Shown here: positions 20,369-30,968 of the stretch, one piece after another
Position numbering within the stretch: position 1 is the stretch's first letter
Layout of the letters: every line of letters begins with the position of its first letter
Made by a program: the position numbers and the translations under genes
Virus record (IMG/VR): IMGVR_UViG_3300045006_000106
Coordinates: 1-30,968 of that record
DNA from: a virus
Strand: one strand, 5' to 3'
DNA: 30,968 nucleotides
The notes under the pieces: model-generated
The model's input: only the letters and a program-made list of their open reading frames with translations
Told to the model about the DNA's origin: nothing
Databases searched by the model: none

Positions 20369-20385
20369 ATAGCTAAAATCTATAT

Positions 20386-20513
20386 AAAACTTAAAAATTC
20401 ACACCCGTATAATAGCCTATACGGGTTTTCTTTTTCTCCTTAATATAAATATATACCTTAAAATAGCCTTCGCCATATGAGATAACACATTTTTTACATA
20501 AAGTTAAGGTAAA
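20386..20513 (+). repeat. 128-bp intergenic element, copy 2
   Basis: This is the partner of 1383-1510: same length, ungapped alignment, and conserved flanks including ACCTTAAAATAG and CATAAAGTTAAGGTAAA. The inverted ACCTT (20455-20459) and AAGGT (20506-20510) again bracket a 56-bp core. The core differs from copy 1 and lacks the hairpin. It stands between the end of the tail genes and the putative origin region. Confidence 0.8.
20403..20435 (+). terminator. Intrinsic terminator closing the structural block
   Basis: ACCCGTATA (20403-20411) pairs perfectly with TATACGGGT (20418-20426), with a 6-base loop, followed by TTTCTTTTTC. It is the strongest terminator in the window and ends the tail transcript about 35 bases after the last tail gene. 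Confidence 0.9.
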
Positions 20514-20965
20514 AGCCTAGTGTAACCACAGAATGCATAATAAATAATAGTAATAATATAAATATAATATAAATAAAATAATAATTAAAATCCTTTAGTT
20601 ATTTATTATTCTTTATTGTAATTTATTTTTATTGTTTTGTTTTGATACACATTGTTTATTTTGATACACTTCACACACAATATTTTAGGCCTCACAAATT
20701 TTTAGAAAACTGTTTTTAATTTTTAGGCTTTTAAAAATAGGCATATACCCCTATAGGCCCCTAAATCCCGGTCAGTGTGTGTATTTTGACCGTTTCATTT
20801 TAATACACTTTGTTATAGATATATACACTTTTAAAATTAAAAATCAATAATATTGTAGTATAGATATATATTAATATTTATATATTTAAATATTAATAAT
20901 TTATAATATTATAATATTTAAAGATTGTTATTTTTGTAACGCACTTTTTCTTTATTATATATTTT
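20514..20965. other. AT-rich non-coding region, candidate replication origin
   Basis: No gene is seen here. It contains TTTTGATACAC at 20640-20650, TTTTGATACACTT at 20659-20671 (19-bp spacing), TTTTAATACACTT at 20798-20810, and an ATATACACTTTT near 20820, all in the same orientation, with a related GTGTGTATTTTGA in the opposite sense near 20777-20789. A short GC-richer island (CCCCTATAGGCCCC) lies at about 20750-20762. From about 20811 the DNA is almost pure A/T, as in an unwinding element. It lies directly before the recombination and replication genes. The origin role is inferred from layout. Confidence 0.45.
20769..20792. promoter_or_regulatory. Inverted repeat, candidate operator
   Basis: CGGTCA (20769-20774) and TGACCG (20787-20792) are perfect inverted arms around a 12-base GTGTGTGTATTT spacer. 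The spacing suits a dimeric DNA-binding protein on adjacent turns better than an RNA hairpin. It lies within the candidate origin. Confidence 0.4.
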
Positions 20966-21032
20966 ATATATACATTTTTAATATTTTTATCAAAATATAT
21001 ATTATTTTTAAATAACAAAACGTGATATAATA
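20966..21032 (+). promoter_or_regulatory. 67-bp promoter repeat, copy 1
   Basis: This block is repeated at 28466-28532 with about three differences, all in the first 17 bases; the last ~50 are identical. It contains TGATATAAT, an extended -10 (TATAAT 21026-21031), with A/T-rich upstream DNA and no clear TTGACA. The SbcC gene starts 54 bases after the -10. The conservation of a promoter-like block before two separate gene groups indicates a shared early or replication-gene promoter. Confidence 0.7.
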
Positions 21033-21079
21033 ATATTAATGAATAGCTGATATTCAAATGCTAATAAGGAGGTGAAACT

Positions 21080-22540
21080 ATGGAAGTAATATTGGAAAAC
21101 TTTAATAGTCACGTTAAATCTACTTTTGTGATTCCAAATGGTGAATTAACTGTAGTGACTGGTGAGAATGACCAAGGTAAAAGTTCTGCATTACAGGGTA
21201 TTTATTGGGTAGTTACTAATAATATCCAAGGAGACAAGTTTATTCATTTCGGGAAAGATTTTGCAGCTGTTACAATAATAAGAGATAACTGGTCAATACG
21301 AAAAGAAAGAGATACAAAAGGAAAAACAAAATATACTGTAATTATTGATGGAGTAAAAGAAGAATATTTTAAAACAGATGTTCCAGCAATAGTAGAGCAG
21401 CTATTTGGTTTAAAAAATATTAAGTTTGTAGATAATGAACTTAATATGAACTTTTGGTTCCAGCATGATAATCTGTTCTTATTATCAGAAGCGAGCAGCT
21501 ACAATGCACAGTTTTTTGGATATTTTGCAGGTACAGACGTTTTAGATAAGGTAATTAAAAATCTGCAATCTGATGTACTTAATTTTAATAGGCAGCAGAA
21601 AACAAAAATATCAGAACAGTATACGTTAAAAGGTAAACTTGATAAACTTGAAACTGTTGACTTACTTTCTATGGATTTAAGCAGACTTGAAGAAAAAGAT
21701 GAGTTACTGGAAAAATACATTAAGCTTGTTAACAAATACAGTAACACACAGATAAAAGTAATGGAAGCAAGCAAAGACTGTAAGAAAAACAGAATTGATT
21801 ATCTTGGAGCATTATCAGCACAAAATATAACAGTGAAACAAGAACTTTATACACTTAATTTTAGGTTAGAGTTAAAACCTTTAATTGAAAAATCCACTGA
21901 AGACATGAAAAAGCTAATTGAGAAGAATGAAAAGCTGTCAGAAATAAAAACATCAAATGATGAACTAAACACTGTAGTTGAAGCAATGCAAAAATTAAAT
22001 ACAAGTATTACAATAAACAGTAAGCTTGCATGCAATTACACAGTGCTAAATACAATAGTAGAAAAGAATAAAAGAAAAGCATTATTAGAAAGTATGAAAG
22101 AAAAAAGAAGTGAAGTGATAGCTGAACTTGGAAAAGCTTACAAACAACTTGATGGAAACAGGGCATTCACACTACTTGAAAACAACGCAAAACAGATAGG
22201 TGATAATATGAATAAAATAATGGTACTTTCTTCTTTGTTAACAAGTCATAAGTCAACAAATGAAAAACTTGTACATGCAGCAAGAATAGAATTAATGAAA
22301 GCAACGGTTAATACAGTTGATATAGTAAAAGTTGCTGAAAAAATTGCTAAAATTAAAAAGTTAAAAGTATTGACAGTCGATTTACAGATGTCACAAAGTA
22401 CATTAAACACTGTAGTAAACTTAACTGAAAAACTAAACACGGATTTATTAACAGTAGAAAAAGAATATCATGACAAATTACATGAAATAGGAGAGTGTCC
22501 ACTATGCGGCACAATTATAAAAGGAGATGGCCCGAATTGA
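21080..22540 (+). CDS. SbcC/Rad50-like ATPase, N-terminal half ending at zinc hook
   Basis: The 486-residue protein carries the N-terminal lobe of an SbcC/Rad50/T4 gp46-type ATPase: Walker A GENDQGKS at residues 28-35, and a Q-loop-like NFWFQHDNLFLL near 128-139. Then comes a coiled coil (about 170-465) ending in CPLC (473-476), half of a zinc hook. It stops ten residues later, so the returning coil and the Walker B lobe are missing from this chain. Those are found in the gene at 23580. Together with the Mre11-like protein it should process DNA ends in replication and recombination. Strong AAGGAGGTG ribosome site; first gene after the promoter repeat. Confidence 0.85.
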   Translation: MEVILENFNSHVKSTFVIPNGELTVVTGENDQGKSSALQGIYWVVTNNIQGDKFIHFGKDFAAVTIIRDNWSIRKERDTKGKTKYTVIIDGVKEEYFKTDVPAIVEQLFGLKNIKFVDNELNMNFWFQHDNLFLLSEASSYNAQFFGYFAGTDVLDKVIKNLQSDVLNFNRQQKTKISEQYTLKGKLDKLETVDLLSMDLSRLEEKDELLEKYIKLVNKYSNTQIKVMEASKDCKKNRIDYLGALSAQNITVKQELYTLNFRLELKPLIEKSTEDMKKLIEKNEKLSEIKTSNDELNTVVEAMQKLNTSITINSKLACNYTVLNTIVEKNKRKALLESMKEKRSEVIAELGKAYKQLDGNRAFTLLENNAKQIGDNMNKIMVLSSLLTSHKSTNEKLVHAARIELMKATVNTVDIVKVAEKIAKIKKLKVLTVDLQMSQSTLNTVVNLTEKLNTDLLTVEKEYHDKLHEIGECPLCGTIIKGDGPN

Positions 22541-22803
22541 GTGAAAAGAAAAGAACTGTTACATTTTTGAAGCTAACTGAAGAAGTAAATGAGTTAGAAG
22601 AAATAAGAAGTGATATTGTAGCAAGTATAAATGCTTTGAGACATGGTACACGACAAGATACAATAGAGGACTTAATTAGTAAAGAAACGCTTAAAGACCA
22701 AAGACCCACTGTTAAAATGTTAGCAAAAGAGTGGTACAGGCTCGGACTTAGAAAAGACTTAATAAATAATTCAAAAGTGGAGGTAATAGAAAATGACGAA
22801 TGA
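22537..22803 (+). CDS. Small protein in the SbcC locus (88 aa)
   Basis: TTG 22537 overlaps the SbcC-half stop as TTGA and has AAGGAGAT (22521-22528) eight bases upstream; an in-frame ATG at 22495 lacks this. The 88-residue product is helical and charged, with LTEEVNELEEIRSDI and a C-terminal MLAKEWYRLGLRKDL segment. No known domain. Tight coupling with the split ATPase suggests a partner protein. Confidence 0.6.
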   Translation: MSEKKRTVTFLKLTEEVNELEEIRSDIVASINALRHGTRQDTIEDLISKETLKDQRPTVKMLAKEWYRLGLRKDLINNSKVEVIENDE

Positions 22804-23041
22804 GGAAATATTAAAAATTGCTAAAGATAAAATTGAGTCAGCAAAATCAGCGCTAATAAGAAATGAAGCGCGTAAAGAACAAGCAGAAAAAGAGCTTGAA
22901 CAGATAAAAAATGAAATGGCTGCAAACGGAGTAACACCTGAAAACATAGTAGAGACAATAGAAAAACTTGAAAAAGAAGTTGAAGCAGAGACAAAAGCAT
23001 TACAGGAAGCAATCACTAAAATAGAAGAAGGGCTAAGCTAA
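22793..23041 (+). CDS. Small coiled-coil protein between the SbcC halves (82 aa)
   Basis: Nearly the whole 82-residue chain is predicted coiled coil, broken once at ANGVTPEN (about residues 44-51), so it could form a helical hairpin. ATG 22793 overlaps the previous gene by 11 bases and has GGAGG nine bases upstream. Its stop overlaps the next ATG by one base. Being encoded between the two halves of an ATPase whose coiled coil is unequal, it may contribute to the coiled-coil arm; that is only a proposal. Confidence 0.62.
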
Positions 23042-23277
23042 TGGAAGCAAACTACAAAGAAAAGCAAAACCTAAAATCAAAAATACTAATAATACCAAAC
23101 AATACAATGAAGAATACAACTGCAGCAGTACCAAGAATAAACCCAGTTAAAAATGTTGGGCGCAATGATATGTGTACTTGTGGCAGTGGAAAGAAATTTA
23201 AGAAATGCTGTGGCGAAAATAAATTTATAGAGGCTTATAAGTTAATAGAGCAAAGTCAATCAGAGCCTCAAAGGTAG
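23041..23277 (+). CDS. SEC-C motif zinc-binding protein (78 aa)
   Basis: Residues about 40-58 are a textbook SEC-C zinc motif: [19 protein letters not shown], with CxC and CC ligands, as at the C-terminus of SecA and in many small proteins. The N-terminal part is basic and the C-terminal part a short helix. The motif binds zinc and mediates protein or nucleic acid contacts. The ATG overlaps the coiled-coil gene's stop. A role with the SbcC-like complex is inferred only from the operon. Confidence 0.75.
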
Positions 23278-23284
23278 GTAAATT

Positions 23285-23578
23285 ATGAGACCAGATTTCA
23301 AAAAAGTAGAATTGAAAGAAAGCGCAAAATCAATGTTTACTTGGCTTGGTGAGTCTGATTTATATATAGTAAAAGAAAATTCAGGATATTATGATGTTGT
23401 TTCTGTTCCAAAAGACATACTTAAGCCAGCTACAATGGCAGGAGTAAATATAAATGATGTAATTTTTGTAGATGAAGAGCAAAAGTTAATGTACGTTAGA
23501 CAAGAAGATAGCACAGAAGTTTTGTTCTTAAGAGAAAAAGTTACAGATGTACTTAATACATTTTTAAAGAAGGTGTAA
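23285..23578 (+). CDS. Hypothetical protein in the SbcC locus (97 aa)
   Basis: A 97-residue mixed alpha/beta protein (SDLYIVKENSGYYDVVSV, then INDVIFVDEEQKLMYVRQE) of no recognised family. AAGGTAGG lies just before the ATG, and the stop is one base before the start of the C-terminal ATPase half. It belongs to the same translation chain. Confidence 0.6.
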   Translation: MRPDFKKVELKESAKSMFTWLGESDLYIVKENSGYYDVVSVPKDILKPATMAGVNINDVIFVDEEQKLMYVRQEDSTEVLFLREKVTDVLNTFLKKV

Positions 23579-23579
23579 T

Positions 23580-24200
23580 ATGGTACATAAAGAACTTGTT
23601 GATAAAGTAAAGTATTTATCAACATTAAAAAAGATAACAGAAAAAAGCTTAAGTGACACAATGGAAGAAGTTCACAAGCTAACAACTGTAATAGTAAAAT
23701 ATGAAAAAGCGGTTGAATTAGCAAAGAACACAAGTGCAATGGCAAGAGAAAGAATTGCTACTCATATTTCTTATGTAGTAGAAATGCTACTTAATTCAAC
23801 ATATCCAGAAAAGCATAGTTTTAAGATGGAATTTGTTGAAAGAAGAAACCAGGTAGAGATTGATTATTTTTTAAGTTATAATGGAAATAGTTACCAATTA
23901 AAGAAACCGTTTGTTGGGATTGGCGGAGGTAAAATTACAGTTATCTCTTTAGCAATGTTTTTAGCCGTAAATAATATAATTGATAATAAGATTTTAATAT
24001 TAGATGAAGCAACAAAAATGGTAGACAATGTGGCACTTGAAAAATTATCATCAATTGTAACAGAATACTGCAATACATTTAACAGAACAATCTTATTGAG
24101 TTCTCCAAGGGCTCAAATGGCAGATGCAGCAGCGGAAGTATATAATGTGAAAAAAGAAGGACTTGTAGCTGTTGTTAGGAGGTATAGAGATGGATTATAA
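23580..24200 (+). CDS. SbcC/Rad50-like ATPase, C-terminal half
   Basis: The 206-residue protein holds a short coiled coil (about 10-60) and the C-terminal ATPase lobe. The signature region reads GIGGGKITVISLAM (113-126), Walker B is KILILDEA (137-144) with Asp142/Glu143, and a D-loop-like MVD follows. The usual His switch (SH) appears as SSPR. It lacks Walker A, which is in the gene at 21080, so the two chains must join to make a working ATPase. The coil is much shorter than in the N-terminal half and has no CxxC, so hook and arm are asymmetric. The start is two bases after the upstream stop. Confidence 0.82.
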   Translation: MVHKELVDKVKYLSTLKKITEKSLSDTMEEVHKLTTVIVKYEKAVELAKNTSAMARERIATHISYVVEMLLNSTYPEKHSFKMEFVERRNQVEIDYFLSYNGNSYQLKKPFVGIGGGKITVISLAMFLAVNNIIDNKILILDEATKMVDNVALEKLSSIVTEYCNTFNRTILLSSPRAQMADAAAEVYNVKKEGLVAVVRRYRDGL

Positions 24201-25158
24201 ACCAAAGAAAATAATGGTTGTAGGTGATACTCATTTTCGTGCAAGTACTCCTGTAAAAAGAATAGATGACTTTGCAATGACAGGTATAAATAAATTGAAC
24301 TTTATACTTGAAACTGCAAATAAAGAAAAGTGTGAAAAGATATTTTTTACAGGTGATATATTTCATACCTACAAACTAAATAATGATATACTTCCTTTTA
24401 TTTATGCGTTTTCAAGGTTTCCTTTAATTGACAAATACACTGTAATAGGAAACCATGACATACCTCACCACAATGAAAGTAAAGTATTGGAAACACCTTT
24501 AGGACTTTTAGATAGTTTAGGTTATTTAAAGATATTGCCTAAAAAGTTAGTTTGTCCAGATATTACAGTATATGCTAAAAATTACTATAATGGAATAGAC
24601 AAAGATAGGGAAGTTTATCACATTGATGACACTGAACTAAATGATAGTCAGTTTAATATAGTAATAGCTCATAGTATGCTTGTAAATGACGAAGTTCCTT
24701 TCGACCATTGTAGTTTACAGGATGAGTTTATACAGAATACAAAAGCAGACATTGTAATTACAGGTCATGACCATTTAGGATATGGTGTTAAGAAATTTAA
24801 TAATACATATTTCTTTAATCCTGGAAGCGTGTTAAGGTCATCAATATCAGAAATAAATAGAACACCAAAAGTATATATATTGACACTATATTGGAATGAT
24901 GAAGGAACAAAAGATATTGATGTTAAAATAGTAAATATACCAATAGAAGAACCAGAAAAAACTTTCAATCTTCTATTAGTTGATATTGCAAAAGAAAAAG
25001 AGCAGGAAGTTAGTGAGTTTGTAAAGTTTTTAAGTTCAAGTAACCAGGAACTTGCTACAGATGTTTCAACACTTATAAAGACTTTAGCAGAAAAACATAA
25101 ATATGATAATGATGTTGTAGAACTTGTAACGGAGAAAATAAAACAACTGGAGGCTTAA
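24190..25158 (+). CDS. SbcD/Mre11-like nuclease (T4 gp47/T5 D12 type)
   Basis: The 322-residue protein has all calcineurin-type phosphoesterase motifs: GDTHF (Asp13, His15), FTGDIFH (Asp56), GNHD (88-90 as Asn-His-Asp), AHS (His161) and GHDH (193-195). These bind two metals and cut DNA ends with the Rad50-like partner. I chose ATG 24190, with AGGAGG at 24177-24182; a TTG at 24172 is in frame but upstream of that site. It overlaps the ATPase C-half by 11 bases, in line with a complex. The C-terminal ~70 residues probably bind the ATPase coils. Confidence 0.88.
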   Translation: MDYKPKKIMVVGDTHFRASTPVKRIDDFAMTGINKLNFILETANKEKCEKIFFTGDIFHTYKLNNDILPFIYAFSRFPLIDKYTVIGNHDIPHHNESKVLETPLGLLDSLGYLKILPKKLVCPDITVYAKNYYNGIDKDREVYHIDDTELNDSQFNIVIAHSMLVNDEVPFDHCSLQDEFIQNTKADIVITGHDHLGYGVKKFNNTYFFNPGSVLRSSISEINRTPKVYILTLYWNDEGTKDIDVKIVNIPIEEPEKTFNLLLVDIAKEKEQEVSEFVKFLSSSNQELATDVSTLIKTLAEKHKYDNDVVELVTEKIKQLEA

Positions 25159-25307: not shown

Positions 25308-26018
25308 ATGAAAGGGTTTGAACAAGATTTAGCACAGGTAGTTGTAGAGTTAGGAAATCAGTGGGAAATGAGAGATAATATCATAGCAAACATGAAAGAA
25401 GTAAATGAAAAGCTAATATTTGAAAAGAAAAAAAAGTTTGACCATAAGATTTCAATGCAGCTAAAAGAAAATGAAGCGATGATGATGATAGACGGGAAAA
25501 CGGCTTCATACAACAATCAGCTATTTCAGGTTGGTAATGCGGAACAGAGAGATGCATTTAAGTCTATAGTTTGCTTTGAATTGATAAAGAAAGGAAATGA
25601 GATAGACAAAAATATATTATCTCTTGAAAATGAAATGAGGCAGTTGGAAAATAATCTTCTTGCAAATAAGATAAATTCTGAAGCACTAAAAGAAAAATCA
25701 GCAATGATAAGAACTGTAATAGAACTTGACGTTGCACAGACAAACCTTGCTGCTGAAGCTGATAAGTCAAAACAGATACTGGCTGAATTTGATGTAAATA
25801 AACAGTTACTACAGATTAAAATTGAAAATGAAGAAGCAATACTAAAAATGAGAGATACTTTTAAAACAAAAGAAATGCAGGCTAAGATGGAAATAGTAAA
25901 AATAGAGTCTGAAAATCTTGTTAAAGCTATGGAAACTGCTGAGATAAACAAGTCAACAGCTACAATTAACAATGCAACAGCTGAATTGAACCTAACAGCA
26001 ACAAAAATAGCAAGATAA
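25308..26018 (+). CDS. Coiled-coil protein of unknown function
   Basis: The 236-residue protein is coiled-coil or long-helix for most of its length (about 80-220), with Ala/Glu/Lys-rich repeats toward the C-terminus such as INNATAELNLTATKIAR. ATG 25308 is chosen because GGAGG (25295-25299) is spaced for it, not for ATG 25293. The TAA overlaps the next ATG. It may be a structural partner of the SbcCD-like complex or another replication factor; no family is recognised. Confidence 0.6.
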   Translation: MKGFEQDLAQVVVELGNQWEMRDNIIANMKEVNEKLIFEKKKKFDHKISMQLKENEAMMMIDGKTASYNNQLFQVGNAEQRDAFKSIVCFELIKKGNEIDKNILSLENEMRQLENNLLANKINSEALKEKSAMIRTVIELDVAQTNLAAEADKSKQILAEFDVNKQLLQIKIENEEAILKMRDTFKTKEMQAKMEIVKIESENLVKAMETAEINKSTATINNATAELNLTATKIAR

Positions 26019-26464
26019 TGAACAGGAAAATAATAGGTAAAGAAACAAGAGATGAAGGGTTACAGTTTGAAAAAGAATTAGCTAAAGCATTTGTTGAAAA
26101 AGGCTGTTGGGTTTTACCTATAAGTGATTATGGTCTTGGGGAAAAACCTCCGGACCTTCTTGTTATAGGTCCAGAGAAAAATTTATTAATAGAATGTAAA
26201 ACAACAAAATCAGGAAGTTTTAACAGTTCAGAAGTAAAACTGCACCAGGTAAAAAATCTCGTAAATTTTAAAAGAATAAAATGCTGTAATTACGGGTATG
26301 TTGCGGTTAATTTTTTAGCATACGGATATATTTGTTTTATTGATATTCATGTGCTTGCTGAACTAGTAAATAATTCAGGTTCAAAAAAGATTGACTTTAG
26401 CACAATGCAAGAAAATTCAAAAGTAGTTTCTACAGTATTTATGAATATAGAAAGTTTAATGTAA
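26018..26464 (+). CDS. Holliday junction resolvase-like nuclease (PD-(D/E)XK)
   Basis: The 148-residue protein has the core of PD-(D/E)XK nucleases of the Hjc/RecU type: a Glu in the first helix (Glu18 or Glu20), PPDLLVIG with Asp46, and LLIECKTTKSGSF with Glu59 and Lys61, followed by a helix. Such enzymes cut branched DNA, resolving replication and recombination junctions before packaging. TAATG overlap with the upstream stop. Location between the SbcD and helicase genes supports a recombination role. VRR-NUC-type or Mrr-like nucleases are alternatives. Confidence 0.75.
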   Translation: MNRKIIGKETRDEGLQFEKELAKAFVEKGCWVLPISDYGLGEKPPDLLVIGPEKNLLIECKTTKSGSFNSSEVKLHQVKNLVNFKRIKCCNYGYVAVNFLAYGYICFIDIHVLAELVNNSGSKKIDFSTMQENSKVVSTVFMNIESLM

Positions 26465-26476
26465 GGTGGTGAAAAA

Positions 26477-28168
26477 TTGATAAAAATTACAGTAGATAAA
26501 GATTGTACAATACACAATTTTAATGAGTTGCCAAAAGAACTACAAGCAAAAATAATTGATGATTTAACAGTGCCAAACCCAGAGTATGTATCAGCTAAAA
26601 AGAATGGGTTCAGTACTTTTAATACTTCACCAACGCTTAAGTTTTTTAGGTATAATTTTTCTGATTTAATAGTACCTAAGGCGTTCTTTGATGCAACTAA
26701 TAATAAGTATCAAGTTATTCAGACAACAAAGTGTAAAAATAAAGACTCATTGTCAATACTTGTAAAATCAGATAAAATACAGCTAAGGGACTATCAGGAA
26801 AAAGCATTAAAATCAGTTGAGAAAAACATAAATGGTATAATTGAAGCACCTGCAGGAAGCGGTAAGACAATAATAGGGATGCACATAATTGAGCAGAAAT
26901 GTAGGCGGGCTTTGTGGATAACACACACAAATGACCTATTAAACCAAGGAATTGAAGCGGCAAATCTATGCTTCATAAAACCAAGTATAGGAAAAATAAA
27001 TTCAGATTGTTGTGAGTTCTCAAGTAGTAATGATATTGTATTTGCTACAGTCCAGAGCTTAAATGAAGAAAGAATAGAACAACTTAATGAGTTTATCGAT
27101 ATTGTAATAATAGATGAAGCACACCACTACATGGCTACGGTATTTAATAACGTAATATCAAAATTAGATACTTGGCAGATGTTTGGTCTTACCGCCACGC
27201 CTGAAAGAAAAGATGGGTTAACTACAGTACTTGATTATTTTATTGGGCCTAAGAGAATAAAGATTGACAGGAAAGATTTATATGAGGCAGGAAAATTAAT
27301 AAAGCCTGAGATTAAGTTTATATTTACTGAATTTCATATGTCAACAGCAGGAGAAAGAAATGAAGTTGGTGGGGTTAATGCTGGTGATGATGTTAACTAC
27401 TCTGAAATAACTGGTTTGCTTTATAAAGATAAAGATAGAATAAATTTAATAGCACAAAATATTGTTGATGGGTTTAATCAGTATGGGTTTAGTTTAGTTT
27501 TATCTGACTCTATTAAATATTCTTTTGATGTTATGTGTGAAGTTGAAAGGCTATTTTTAAAGATAGGAAAGAATGTAAGCATAAAGTTAATTCATGGGGG
27601 CACGTCACAGTATAAATGGCAGAGAGTAGCAAGTAAAAGAGTAGCAGACCATATGTTTAATGAGGGTCAATGTGAAGACATAAAGTTCAATAAAGGTTAT
27701 CATGTAAAAATAAAAAATTACTCAGACGAAGATTTTTCAAGAATTAACTGTAGTAAGAAACAGCGTGAAGAAATATTAGCTGACTCAAGAATAGGAAAAG
27801 TTGATATTTTATTTGCAACAAAGTTAGCTAAAGAGGGACTTGACCTACCAAACCTTATAGTTGGTCATAAGATAAGCCCTGCAAGAGGTGATAGTACTGA
27901 AAAATGTAGTGAAACTGGTGCAACAAAAACAATAGCAACTGGCGGAAATGTAGAGCAAGAAATAGGCAGACTGCAAAGGCCAGCACCAGGAAAAACAAAA
28001 GCTGTATGGTATGATTATGTAGACTATAATGTTGGTATATTCAAAAATCAGTATTACAGTAGACGAAGGGTGTATGAAAGACTTGGTCTTGAAATACCTA
28101 AAAAGTTAAAAAACAAAGAAAGTTACAATGTTTTCAATGATAAAAAATTATTCGGATGGGGGGACTAA
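26477..28168 (+). CDS. DNA helicase, superfamily 2 (DEAH box)
   Basis: The 563-residue protein starts at TTG 26477 after AAGGTGGTGA. The motor shows LRDYQEKAL (103-111), Walker A APAGSGKT (124-131), DEAH (213-216), GLTATPER (237-244), and a C-terminal Q...GRLQRP motif VI near 495. It resembles the type III restriction/UvsW/T5 D10 class of SF2 helicases that remodel forks and branched DNA. The N-terminal ~100 residues are a separate domain. An unusual insertion of about 60 residues lies in the second RecA domain (around 375-420). It follows the resolvase gene. Confidence 0.85.
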   Translation: MIKITVDKDCTIHNFNELPKELQAKIIDDLTVPNPEYVSAKKNGFSTFNTSPTLKFFRYNFSDLIVPKAFFDATNNKYQVIQTTKCKNKDSLSILVKSDKIQLRDYQEKALKSVEKNINGIIEAPAGSGKTIIGMHIIEQKCRRALWITHTNDLLNQGIEAANLCFIKPSIGKINSDCCEFSSSNDIVFATVQSLNEERIEQLNEFIDIVIIDEAHHYMATVFNNVISKLDTWQMFGLTATPERKDGLTTVLDYFIGPKRIKIDRKDLYEAGKLIKPEIKFIFTEFHMSTAGERNEVGGVNAGDDVNYSEITGLLYKDKDRINLIAQNIVDGFNQYGFSLVLSDSIKYSFDVMCEVERLFLKIGKNVSIKLIHGGTSQYKWQRVASKRVADHMFNEGQCEDIKFNKGYHVKIKNYSDEDFSRINCSKKQREEILADSRIGKVDILFATKLAKEGLDLPNLIVGHKISPARGDSTEKCSETGATKTIATGGNVEQEIGRLQRPAPGKTKAVWYDYVDYNVGIFKNQYYSRRRVYERLGLEIPKKLKNKESYNVFNDKKLFGWGD

Positions 28169-28172
28169 AATA

Positions 28173-28454
28173 ATGGGATGTGGAAGACAAATAGGTGATA
28201 ACTGCAAAAATGCTTCGTGTTTAAAAGAAATATGTGATAATTTCTTCTATGGTGATATACCTACAGTAGATGCTTTGCCTGATGTTGATTTATCAGAAGA
28301 AATTATATGCCAAACAGACTGTAATACGTGCACAAATACAGTATGTTTTTATGATAAAGCAGAGTTAAAAGAACAAGTAACAGAGTACGAAGGCTGCTCT
28401 GCTGGTAAAAATGTTATGAGCTGCGATGGTAAATGCTCTGAATGCACAAAATAA
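28173..28454 (+). CDS. Cysteine-rich small protein (93 aa, 12 Cys)
   Basis: ATG 28173 is chosen because GGGGGGAC (28158-28164) is well placed; the in-frame 28128 start lies within the helicase gene. Cysteines occur in three groups (four N-terminal, CQTDCNTCTNTVC, then GCSAGKNVMSCDGKCSEC), so zinc or iron-sulfur binding is likely. No family is recognised. It ends the first replication operon before the second promoter. Confidence 0.65.
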   Translation: MGCGRQIGDNCKNASCLKEICDNFFYGDIPTVDALPDVDLSEEIICQTDCNTCTNTVCFYDKAELKEQVTEYEGCSAGKNVMSCDGKCSECTK

Positions 28455-28587: not shown

Positions 28588-29289
28588 ATGACAACTAAAC
28601 TTGTAGAGATGGAAAAAGTAGGAGAGTCAACAGAAGTTAAAGATGTGGCAGTTAAGAGTGAAAACCCGGCAGCTGTTATTGCAAAAAAAGTTGGGGATAT
28701 TGTTGAAAGAGTTCGTGGTGACTTCTTGGCAGCAAATGCAAATCTTGGGCTTGACTTTGTGTATCTTGCTAACTGGATAACGATTGATGGTAAAGGCAAA
28801 TTTTGTGATGCAGCTACAGAGACAAAATTTGGTGAAACAATTGATGTTATTATAGGAAAAGGCGAAGAAAGATTTACTCTTTGGGGTGCTGAAGGCTCCG
28901 AGTTTGAAGGGCAGCTGCTAATAGCTGAAGGAACAATCGATGAAGCGTACACTAAGTATGCAGAAATGAAAGAAAACAATGAAGCATTTGCTGCAGCTCA
29001 TTCTTCTGATGATATTGCAAGCAGATACTTAATGCAAATAGTACCAGTTGAAAGCATTAAGTCTGAAGTTCCTGAAGTATTCTTGATTGACCTTGCAACA
29101 TCTGCTAAGTATGCATTCGGTAAATTTGCAGCAGAACTTTATAGAAAAGGAAATCAGCCAGCAGGAATACCAAAAATGACTCCAGTATCTGCTGTAGTTG
29201 TAAGGCTTAAAACAGTCGATAAAACAAATGCAAATAAACAGAACTATATATCTATAGAATTTGAAGCAGTAGAAATGTTAAAAATTTAA
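28588..29289 (+). CDS. Unknown 233-residue protein, first gene after promoter copy 2
   Basis: ACGGAGG precedes the ATG. The product is acidic, with a charged N-terminal tail, then a mixed alpha/beta body (a GLDFVYLANWITI segment, then GETIDVIIGKGEERFTLWG, and a C-terminal YISIEFEAVEMLK strand). It has its own promoter and stands before the primase, which is where many phages place a single-stranded DNA-binding protein. No OB-fold motif can be shown by eye, so this is only a possibility. Confidence 0.6.
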   Translation: MTTKLVEMEKVGESTEVKDVAVKSENPAAVIAKKVGDIVERVRGDFLAANANLGLDFVYLANWITIDGKGKFCDAATETKFGETIDVIIGKGEERFTLWGAEGSEFEGQLLIAEGTIDEAYTKYAEMKENNEAFAAAHSSDDIASRYLMQIVPVESIKSEVPEVFLIDLATSAKYAFGKFAAELYRKGNQPAGIPKMTPVSAVVVRLKTVDKTNANKQNYISIEFEAVEMLKI

Positions 29290-29307
29290 TAACTGGAGGA
29301 ACACCTT

Positions 29308-30968
29308 ATGTTCGATTATACATACGTTTGGCATAGTACAGGCACAGAGCAAGGCCAGTGGAAACGTATAGCTGTAACAGAGGTGGATGACTACCAGCAT
29401 AAAGAGGCAAACAACTTCAATTGTTTTGCCTCTTTGCAGCGTTATAAAACTAATGTCAAAGAACCAGATGAAGACTTTATATCTCCACTGTACTTTGACA
29501 TCGATAATGCTGACCTAGAAAAATCAAAAAGTGATGCTATTAAGGTAGTGACTCAATTATTATCTATGGGTCTTTCACCAGCAGAAATACAGATATATTT
29601 TTCTGGAAGTAAAGGTTTTCATATTTTAATAGATGAAAAAATTGTGGGAATAAGCCCAAATAAAAATCTACATAAAATACTAAAACATGTAGTACAGTAT
29701 ATAAGTTTTAAAGCAGGTAAAAAAGAAGATGGAACGTATGAAGCAGTAGAATCAGTTGATATGGTTGTATACACAATTAAAAGGTTATTGAGACTTGAAA
29801 ATAGTGTACACCATAAAACAAAATTATATAAGATACATTTATCATATGATGAACTTATAAATTTAACAACTGATGAAATAAAAGAGCTTGCTGCATTACC
29901 AAGAGAAAAGCAAAAGAAACAAAAAGTAAAGTTAAACACAAAATTCGTAGAGTTTTATAAGAGAAAGGAAGAAGAAGCACTTGAACTAATAAGTAACACT
30001 GTAATAACTGCAAGTAAAGGTGATTTTAGTTTTACAAAAGAAAGTGAAATGCCTTTATGTGTACAAGATATTTATGGTAATGGCTGGAAAAAAGATGGAG
30101 ATAGAAACCTTGCTACAATACAGTTAGCTTGTTATTTTAAAGAAGCTGGCTACCAATTAGATGAAACAAAAACCTTACTTGGAGCGTGGGTAGAAAAGCA
30201 TACAACAGCTAAAACAACATATGACAAACAAAGTAAAGTAGTAGCAACATGGTCAGTTATAACTTCTATATACCAGGAAGATGAGTATAAGTTTGATTGT
30301 GGGTTTATAAGAAGTTTACATGGAACTAAAGAAGCAAACAGTACAGATTATGATAGGGTAAAATGTGCGGGTTCATTTTGCAACTGTTTGCCAAAGAAAG
30401 ACGTTGGCGAAGCAGTTGACATAAGGCTTTCAGACTCAGCAAATGCAGAATACTATGGAAGTCTTGTTAAATCAAATGTAATGGTAGCTGGTAAAAAGCA
30501 AACTCCATATATAATTCCTAAAAGAATTGAGTATGTTTGTAAAGGTAAGAAGACATGTAAAATACCAGAATGCCCATTAGCGAGTATACCTTCTGGAATA
30601 GCTTATAAGGATATTAGTCCAATTGACAAAGAAAGTATTTCAATGTGTGGGGTTTCAGATGATTACATTCAATTAGTACTTAAAAAGTTATCAGGAATTT
30701 ATAACTGTAATAAGTTCACGATTGATGTAATAGAGCACACTAATATGGAAGAATTGCTTGTAATACCTATGGCTGATGACGTTATAAAATACTCAGATGA
30801 TACAAATACAGGTAAATATGTTTTAAGAAAAGTGTATACAATAGGTGATATGCCACTTGATGAGAATAAATACTATGATATTAAAGGTTGGGTTTACCCT
30901 CATCCTAAAAATCAGGAAGGTACGATAATAGTAACAGAAGCAAATGCACTACAGGATAAAACAGAAAG
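29308..30968 (+). CDS. Archaeo-eukaryotic-type primase, multidomain (3' truncated by window)
   Basis: ATG 29308 has GGAGG eight bases upstream and the frame is open to the window end (553 codons seen). Residues about 55-180 are an AEP primase core: YFDID (Asp64, Asp66), SGSKGFH (99-105), Asp151, and NSVHHKTKLYKI, equal to the SLHGKTG motif. Residues 245-362 resemble the PriL C-terminal iron-sulfur region: MPLC (Cys251), then GDRNLATIQLACYF, then Cys331, Cys353 and Cys358. Residues 390-553 have a CKGKKTC/PEC cysteine cluster and OB-like strands (KYYDIKGWVYPHP) resembling the N-terminal part of MCM-type helicases. A helicase domain may follow outside the window. It should prime phage DNA replication. 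Confidence 0.82.
   Translation, partial: MFDYTYVWHSTGTEQGQWKRIAVTEVDDYQHKEANNFNCFASLQRYKTNVKEPDEDFISPLYFDIDNADLEKSKSDAIKVVTQLLSMGLSPAEIQIYFSGSKGFHILIDEKIVGISPNKNLHKILKHVVQYISFKAGKKEDGTYEAVESVDMVVYTIKRLLRLENSVHHKTKLYKIHLSYDELINLTTDEIKELAALPREKQKKQKVKLNTKFVEFYKRKEEEALELISNTVITASKGDFSFTKESEMPLCVQDIYGNGWKKDGDRNLATIQLACYFKEAGYQLDETKTLLGAWVEKHTTAKTTYDKQSKVVATWSVITSIYQEDEYKFDCGFIRSLHGTKEANSTDYDRVKCAGSFCNCLPKKDVGEAVDIRLSDSANAEYYGSLVKSNVMVAGKKQTPYIIPKRIEYVCKGKKTCKIPECPLASIPSGIAYKDISPIDKESISMCGVSDDYIQLVLKKLSGIYNCNKFTIDVIEHTNMEELLVIPMADDVIKYSDDTNTGKYVLRKVYTIGDMPLDENKYYDIKGWVYPHPKNQEGTIIVTEANALQDKTE

Follow-up and report, generated by a model that had tools for sequence, protein, structure and literature searches.

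What does a virus encode when its record ends in the middle of a primase gene? The record considered here (IMGVR_UViG_3300045006_000106, 30,968 nucleotides, analysed over its whole length and called the window below) closes with a reading frame in which an earlier note, made from the letters of the window, had seen three archaeal-type parts in order: a PriS-like core, a four-cysteine region like the C-terminal domain (CTD) of PriL, and a cysteine cluster with an OB-like part. Domain matches, invariant residues and fold matches agree with that order. The gene at the record end encodes the front half of a primase-helicase that joins, in a single chain, parts of the archaeal/eukaryotic type: PriS, PriL and MCM.

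A gene truncated where the record ends

The frame begins with an ATG at 29308 on the plus strand. Eight bases upstream lies GGAGG (29295-29299), a ribosome-binding site read directly from the sequence. From the ATG the frame stays open through 553 codons to 30966, and the record stops at 30968. With the frame still open at that point, the gene has been cut by the end of the assembly or contig, not by a stop codon; here the earlier note, which had the frame running past the window, was correct. Exact-DNA and degenerate-pattern searches of viral contigs for the missing half found no overlapping contig.

What is known of the product (29308-30966) is thus its first 553 residues, the N-terminal part of an AEP-PriL-MCM fusion. 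It matches PHROG 18685 with an E value of 2.9e-189, residues 2-551 of the 553 aligning with family positions 11-563 of 1028, and similarity to the AEP-MCM proteins of that family spans its whole known length. It is also 46% identical, over 99% of its length, to a protein of Bacillus phage vB_BboS-125. These two matches exclude a chance frame; judged by sequence similarity, the gene at 29308 is real, far beyond chance. PHROG 18685 itself is labeled "unknown function," though the proteins in it are AEP-MCM primase-helicases.

Used by itself as the query of an initial scan, the window protein returned no relatives; approximately 25 complete, distinct ones came from scanning contigs of viruses and genomes. 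Some 24 of these are complete proteins of phages or prophages (1014-1049 amino acids, Bacillota-type) that are 43-48% identical to the window protein along its whole known length. Where a source is named, it is a phage or a prophage-like locus from Bacillales (Bacillus, Paenibacillus, Brevibacillus, Sutcliffiella) or Lachnospiraceae, except that one further relative, 28% identical to the window protein, comes from a Fermentibacterota contig. Most of the Bacillota-type members share 60-73% identity with L109, itself one of them. Set against the 43-48% that separates them from the window protein, this means that the window protein is a divergent branch. In a tree of 27 sequences, it sits on a long branch without a supported sister. 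The conservation counts given below come from an alignment of 26 sequences, 25 of them complete relatives.

A primase core with an intact active site

Residues 1-205 (29308-29922, plus strand) are an archaeo-eukaryotic primase (AEP) of the PriS-like kind, with an intact active site. The Pfam family DNA_primase_S matches residues 63-175 of the window protein with 32.4 bits, above its cut-off, and it matches every one of the 26 family members. Nine residues (D64, D66, S99, G100, G103, H105, D151, R159 and R162) are invariant in all 26, leaving motifs I, II and III intact. Motif I supplies the metal ligands D64-x-D66 (FDID, 29497-29505), motif II reads S99-G-S-K-G-F-H105 (29602-29622), and motif III contributes D151 (29758-29760). 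PriS structures from Sulfolobus and Pyrococcus (1zt2_A, 5of3_A, 1g71_A) are among the best PDB matches of an AlphaFold model of the window protein (pLDDT 84.5).

Iron-sulfur or zinc in the four-cysteine region

The region that follows (residues 205-364, 29920-30399, plus strand) is helical in the predicted model. It holds four cysteines that are invariant in 26 of 26 sequences: C251 (30058-30060) and the putative second, third and fourth ligands of a cluster, C331 (30298-30300), C353 (30364-30366) and C358 (30379-30381). Here, the question is whether such a region descends from PriL, the large subunit of primase.

The single window sequence scores 18.7 bits against Pfam PriL (PF04104), below the 22.4-bit cut-off; 24 of the 26 members match that family at E <= 0.1, the best with an E value of 7.1e-6. 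A profile of residues 205-364 searched against the PDB finds PriL chains only, and finds them weakly (best E 0.19). Profile similarity to PriL, which the earlier note had proposed as a check, is thus weak for the single sequence but holds across the family. A narrow profile-profile comparison, the 26 homologues against an alignment of five archaeal PriL sequences, gave no match, and the comparison became positive only once eight diverse AEPs from phages and MAGs had been added. This combined profile matched archaeal PriL with an hhalign value of 66% (E 5.5e-5), its best HMM score being 14.0 bits, against a maximum of 4.8 in 800 shuffled sequences.

The four-cysteine motif resembles the ligands of the [4Fe-4S] cluster in archaeal PriL, and a [4Fe-4S] cluster bound by the window protein is a plausible inference from that likeness. 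Alternatively, the region might be a zinc-binding PriCT domain rather than an Fe-S domain of the PriL type, a reading that touches one part only and is compatible with a primase-helicase overall. PriCT-1 is indeed matched, weakly, by 15 of the 26 members, and the corresponding domain was named PriCT-1 in the prophage protein BcMCM (PMC5141293). Further, the spacing in the window protein is C-x79-C-x21-C-x4-C, where archaeal PriL (L145) has C-x72-C-x8-C-x6-C, so that the last two intervals differ. Against zinc, however, stands the first cysteine: C251 aligns with the cysteine of the "PPC" or "PLC" of archaeal and yeast PriL, and the profile match to yeast PriL likewise puts it on the Cys of "PLC." Related phage AEPs, moreover, have C-x67to73-C-x8-C-x3to4-C, close to the archaeal pattern, and homology between PriCT domains and the Fe-S domain of PriL has been argued earlier (PMC5862659). 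We would give the zinc-binding domain slightly less than an even chance.

The C-termini of phage and MAG AEPs that stand alone or are otherwise fused (L003, L004, L005, L006, L036 and L039) also carry a four-cysteine PriL-like pattern, typically C-x67to73-C-x8-C-x3to4-C and more loosely spaced in L006 and L036. This hints that PriL-type cluster ligands may be common in phage AEPs.

One probable MCM front, two kinds of primase

Residues 366-553 (30403-30966, plus strand, cut by the record end) are beta-rich in the AlphaFold model, with an OB-like fold and a putative zinc site formed by C411, C417, C422 and C467 (30538-30708), each of these present in all 26 sequences except C417 (25 of 26). The best PDB matches of the window model, which contains no ATPase, are mostly MCM chains, and they include ATPase-free N-terminal parts of MCM (8q6o_7, E 8.2e-6); in these matches the model, with its several domains, was aligned globally, and the TM-scores are low. 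A profile of residues 366-553 found nothing in the PDB, and the same segment, as a profile of 26 homologues, had no profile-profile match to six archaeal MCM proteins. The resemblance to MCM N-terminal domains that the earlier note proposed is thus seen in the predicted fold, not in sequence profiles.

A second line of evidence comes from proteins that carry a different primase. Phage proteins in which a DnaG-type primase (with a CHC2 zinc ribbon and/or Toprim) is joined to MCM were found at L164:3981-6863, L165:4008-6908, L166:2684-5473 and L167:3152-6166. Such fusions occur in phages of Microbacterium, Bacillus (BSP7), Weizmannia and Paenibacillus, and are homologous to the window family. 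In the three that are closer, the homology begins at profile position 372-383, or at about window residue 372. From there onward, they have the same MCM module as the window family; their primase part, in contrast, is of the DnaG type and unrelated to the AEP of the window protein, and no AEP match was found in them. Because these fusions share the segment from about residue 372 without having an AEP, the segment 366-553 belongs to the helicase module. This module boundary and the predicted fold together lead us to infer that residues 366-553 are the zinc/OB-like front of an MCM.

This pattern suggests that primases have been swapped on a common MCM platform, with the switch at about residue 372. 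A fuller proposal would join two claims: that the AEP-MCM family has a genuine PriL-derived [4Fe-4S] domain, uniting PriS, PriL-CTD and MCM in one phage chain, and that the MCM module is a swappable helicase platform to which both AEP and DnaG-type primases have been attached at a common boundary. We regard the combined proposal as a near toss-up that leans a little toward doubt.

The motor, seen in the relatives

For the window phage, of course, the expected motor region lies beyond the record, which ends first (at residue 553), so its ATPase must be read from the relatives. An MCM P-loop domain is present in all 25 complete aligned relatives, which makes it almost certain that the missing half consists of an MCM AAA+ domain followed by a winged helix. 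In seven complete relatives that were aligned, the motor shows a Walker A of GDTGTGKS, a Walker B of WIDE and a conserved RRFD, and the C-terminal region fits a winged helix. Against solved structures, MCM is the family found (SsoMCM, E 2.7e-12); profile-profile comparison likewise gives MCM (96.8%, E 2.1e-10). An AlphaFold model of a full-length relative also matches MCMs, and its pLDDT falls below 50 at residues 666-779, within the ATPase region; as a consequence, the assignment of the motor rests on the sequence profiles. The fused MCM helicase suspected in the earlier note is thus present in the relatives and, through them, very probably in the window phage.

In the Fermentibacterota relative (L035:4644-8825, 1394 amino acids), an intein-like insert with Hint and LAGLIDADG hits lies inside the MCM Walker A (GDSGTGK...VVTHN/S).

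A known type and a new branch

An archaeal-style primase-helicase in one chain had seemed unusual for a bacteriophage. It is not new. The AEP-MCM fusion BcMCM, from a Bacillus cereus prophage, was reported in 2005 by McGeoch and Bell (reviewed in PMC4538821) and taken up in later work (Samuels, 2009; Sanchez-Berrondo, 2012; via PMC4538821, PMC5141293). A 2018 survey (PMC5862659) covered MCM-fused AEPs in mobile elements of bacteria, and the GenBank annotation of the BboS-125 gene already mentions an MCM homologue. Given the 2005 report and the survey, the present finding extends a known type: the window protein is a new, divergent member of the BcMCM-like AEP-MCM type, on record in Bacillus phages and prophages from 2005 onward.

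BcMCM has been described as AEP plus PriCT-1 plus helicase (PMC5141293), and the window protein follows the same order, AEP, PriCT/PriL-like region and, with its motor half very probably beyond the record end, MCM. BcMCM belongs to a prophage of a low-GC Gram-positive, and the window phage probably has a host of that kind. In work after 2005, BcMCM was reported to be a 3'-5' helicase with an ssDNA-stimulated ATPase, and a primase and DNA polymerase that prefers dNTPs (reviewed in PMC4538821). By analogy, the window protein would share its C-terminal half and its helicase, ATPase, primase and polymerase activities. The window protein is approximately 46-48% identical to proteins of the L008 type; these 1028-residue proteins, from L008 and loci almost identical to it, may represent BcMCM itself or close copies. 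A four-cysteine/PriL reading for BcMCM was not found in the reviews consulted.

The protein of vB_BboS-125 (AYP68415.1, PHROG 18685) has the same neighbor genes as the window protein and is complete, with 1027 residues and an MCM domain at 636-790, where the window protein is cut at 553. A Bacillus velezensis plasmid, p3 (L163, NZ_CP079100.1, 70.5 kb), carries this AEP-MCM and polymerase cassette too, at 71% identity to BboS-125. Because a "plasmid" carries such a cassette, p3 may be a plasmid prophage.

More distant systems share the parts in other arrangements. PolpTN2, from the Thermococcus plasmid pTN2, has a PriS-like AEP and a PriL-like domain with a predicted 4Fe-4S cluster (PMC5862659). 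Unlike the window family, it ends in a winged helix without MCM, and its motif II histidine was singled out as a departure (PMC5862659), whereas the window protein has that histidine. The archaeal PriS-PriL primase and MCM are related to all three window modules by profile and/or fold. In archaea, however, PriS, PriL and MCM are separate proteins, while in the window family they form one chain; further, two archaeal features, the N-terminal domain of PriL and the helical A-subdomain of the MCM front, have no counterpart seen and are not evident, respectively, in the window protein.

What is gained, then, is a function for PHROG 18685 and a divergent branch of the single-chain AEP-PriL-MCM replicase of phages, a type already known that has received little study. 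A single chain holding PriS, PriL-CTD and MCM would be a compact model for the coupling of priming to an MCM motor. The pairing of AEP-MCM with DnaG-MCM, in turn, offers a natural test of whether an MCM ring accepts unrelated primases.

Genomic context and proposed function

Immediately 5' of the primase gene lies a conserved partner gene (28588-29289; PHROG 17870, unknown function). Farther upstream are an SF2 (UvsW-like) helicase (26477-28168) and a Holliday-junction resolvase (Hjc/RecU-like, 26018-26464), all on the plus strand. In 23 loci, a homologue of the 28588 gene and the SF2 helicase stand upstream of the AEP-MCM gene, and a family-A polymerase (polA homologue) stands downstream, the match being weak in L130. 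Hjc/RecU-like, metallophosphoesterase and SMC-like genes are often present as well. The genes surrounding the AEP-MCM gene are a phage replication/recombination cassette.

The gene product is very probably the replicative primase-helicase of the phage itself, a single chain running from AEP through the PriL/PriCT-like four-cysteine region and the MCM zinc/OB collar to the MCM AAA+ domain and winged helix beyond the record. Most likely, an MCM-type ring, presumably hexameric, would unwind the phage DNA in the 3'-5' direction. The AEP domains on the N-terminal face of this ring would make primers, and these would presumably be handed to the family-A DNA polymerase encoded just downstream in the relatives. 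The PriL-like domain, perhaps with a [4Fe-4S] cluster, would play the part that PriL plays for PriS and bind the template and the initiating nucleotide.

The whole fusion might instead serve as a primase-polymerase for repair or fork restart only, and not as the main replicase. A role under particular conditions, for example re-initiation where a fork has stalled, has been proposed for BcMCM (PMC4538821), and SbcC-, SbcD-, Hjc- and UvsW-like recombination genes surround the AEP-MCM gene; this is nevertheless unlikely, as the catalytic residues of the AEP are all intact and the gene has been retained within a conserved phage replication cassette, in the relatives beside the phage DNA polymerase. 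Most improbable of all is a truncated or stand-alone primase (AEP, PriL-like part and zinc/OB tail) with its helicase on another gene, an arrangement known from Thermus phage P23-45 and Moorella phage MTATph1 (short AEP gene, separate DnaB gene nearby). In its favor, the motor half lies outside the record, and many phage AEPs are short, stand-alone proteins with DnaB-like helicases encoded close by. Against it, the frame here runs some 190 residues beyond the PriL-like part, through the MCM-N-like segment to the record end, and all complete proteins that share this segment run on into the MCM motor. A scan of nine of the window's genes also turned up no family of the DnaB type.

Three other features of the window deserve mention beside this one-chain primase-helicase. 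Between the structural and replication genes lie about 700 very AT-rich bases without a long open frame (20369-21079), in which no tRNA or Rfam match was found. Upstream of the Hjc/RecU and UvsW-like genes, the interval 21080-25158 holds SbcC/SMC-like ATPase pieces (at 21080 and 23580) and a metallophosphoesterase (at 24172), possibly a split SbcCD-like set. Last, a small, very cysteine-rich protein of 108 residues (28128-28454) overlaps the 3' end of the UvsW-like helicase gene.
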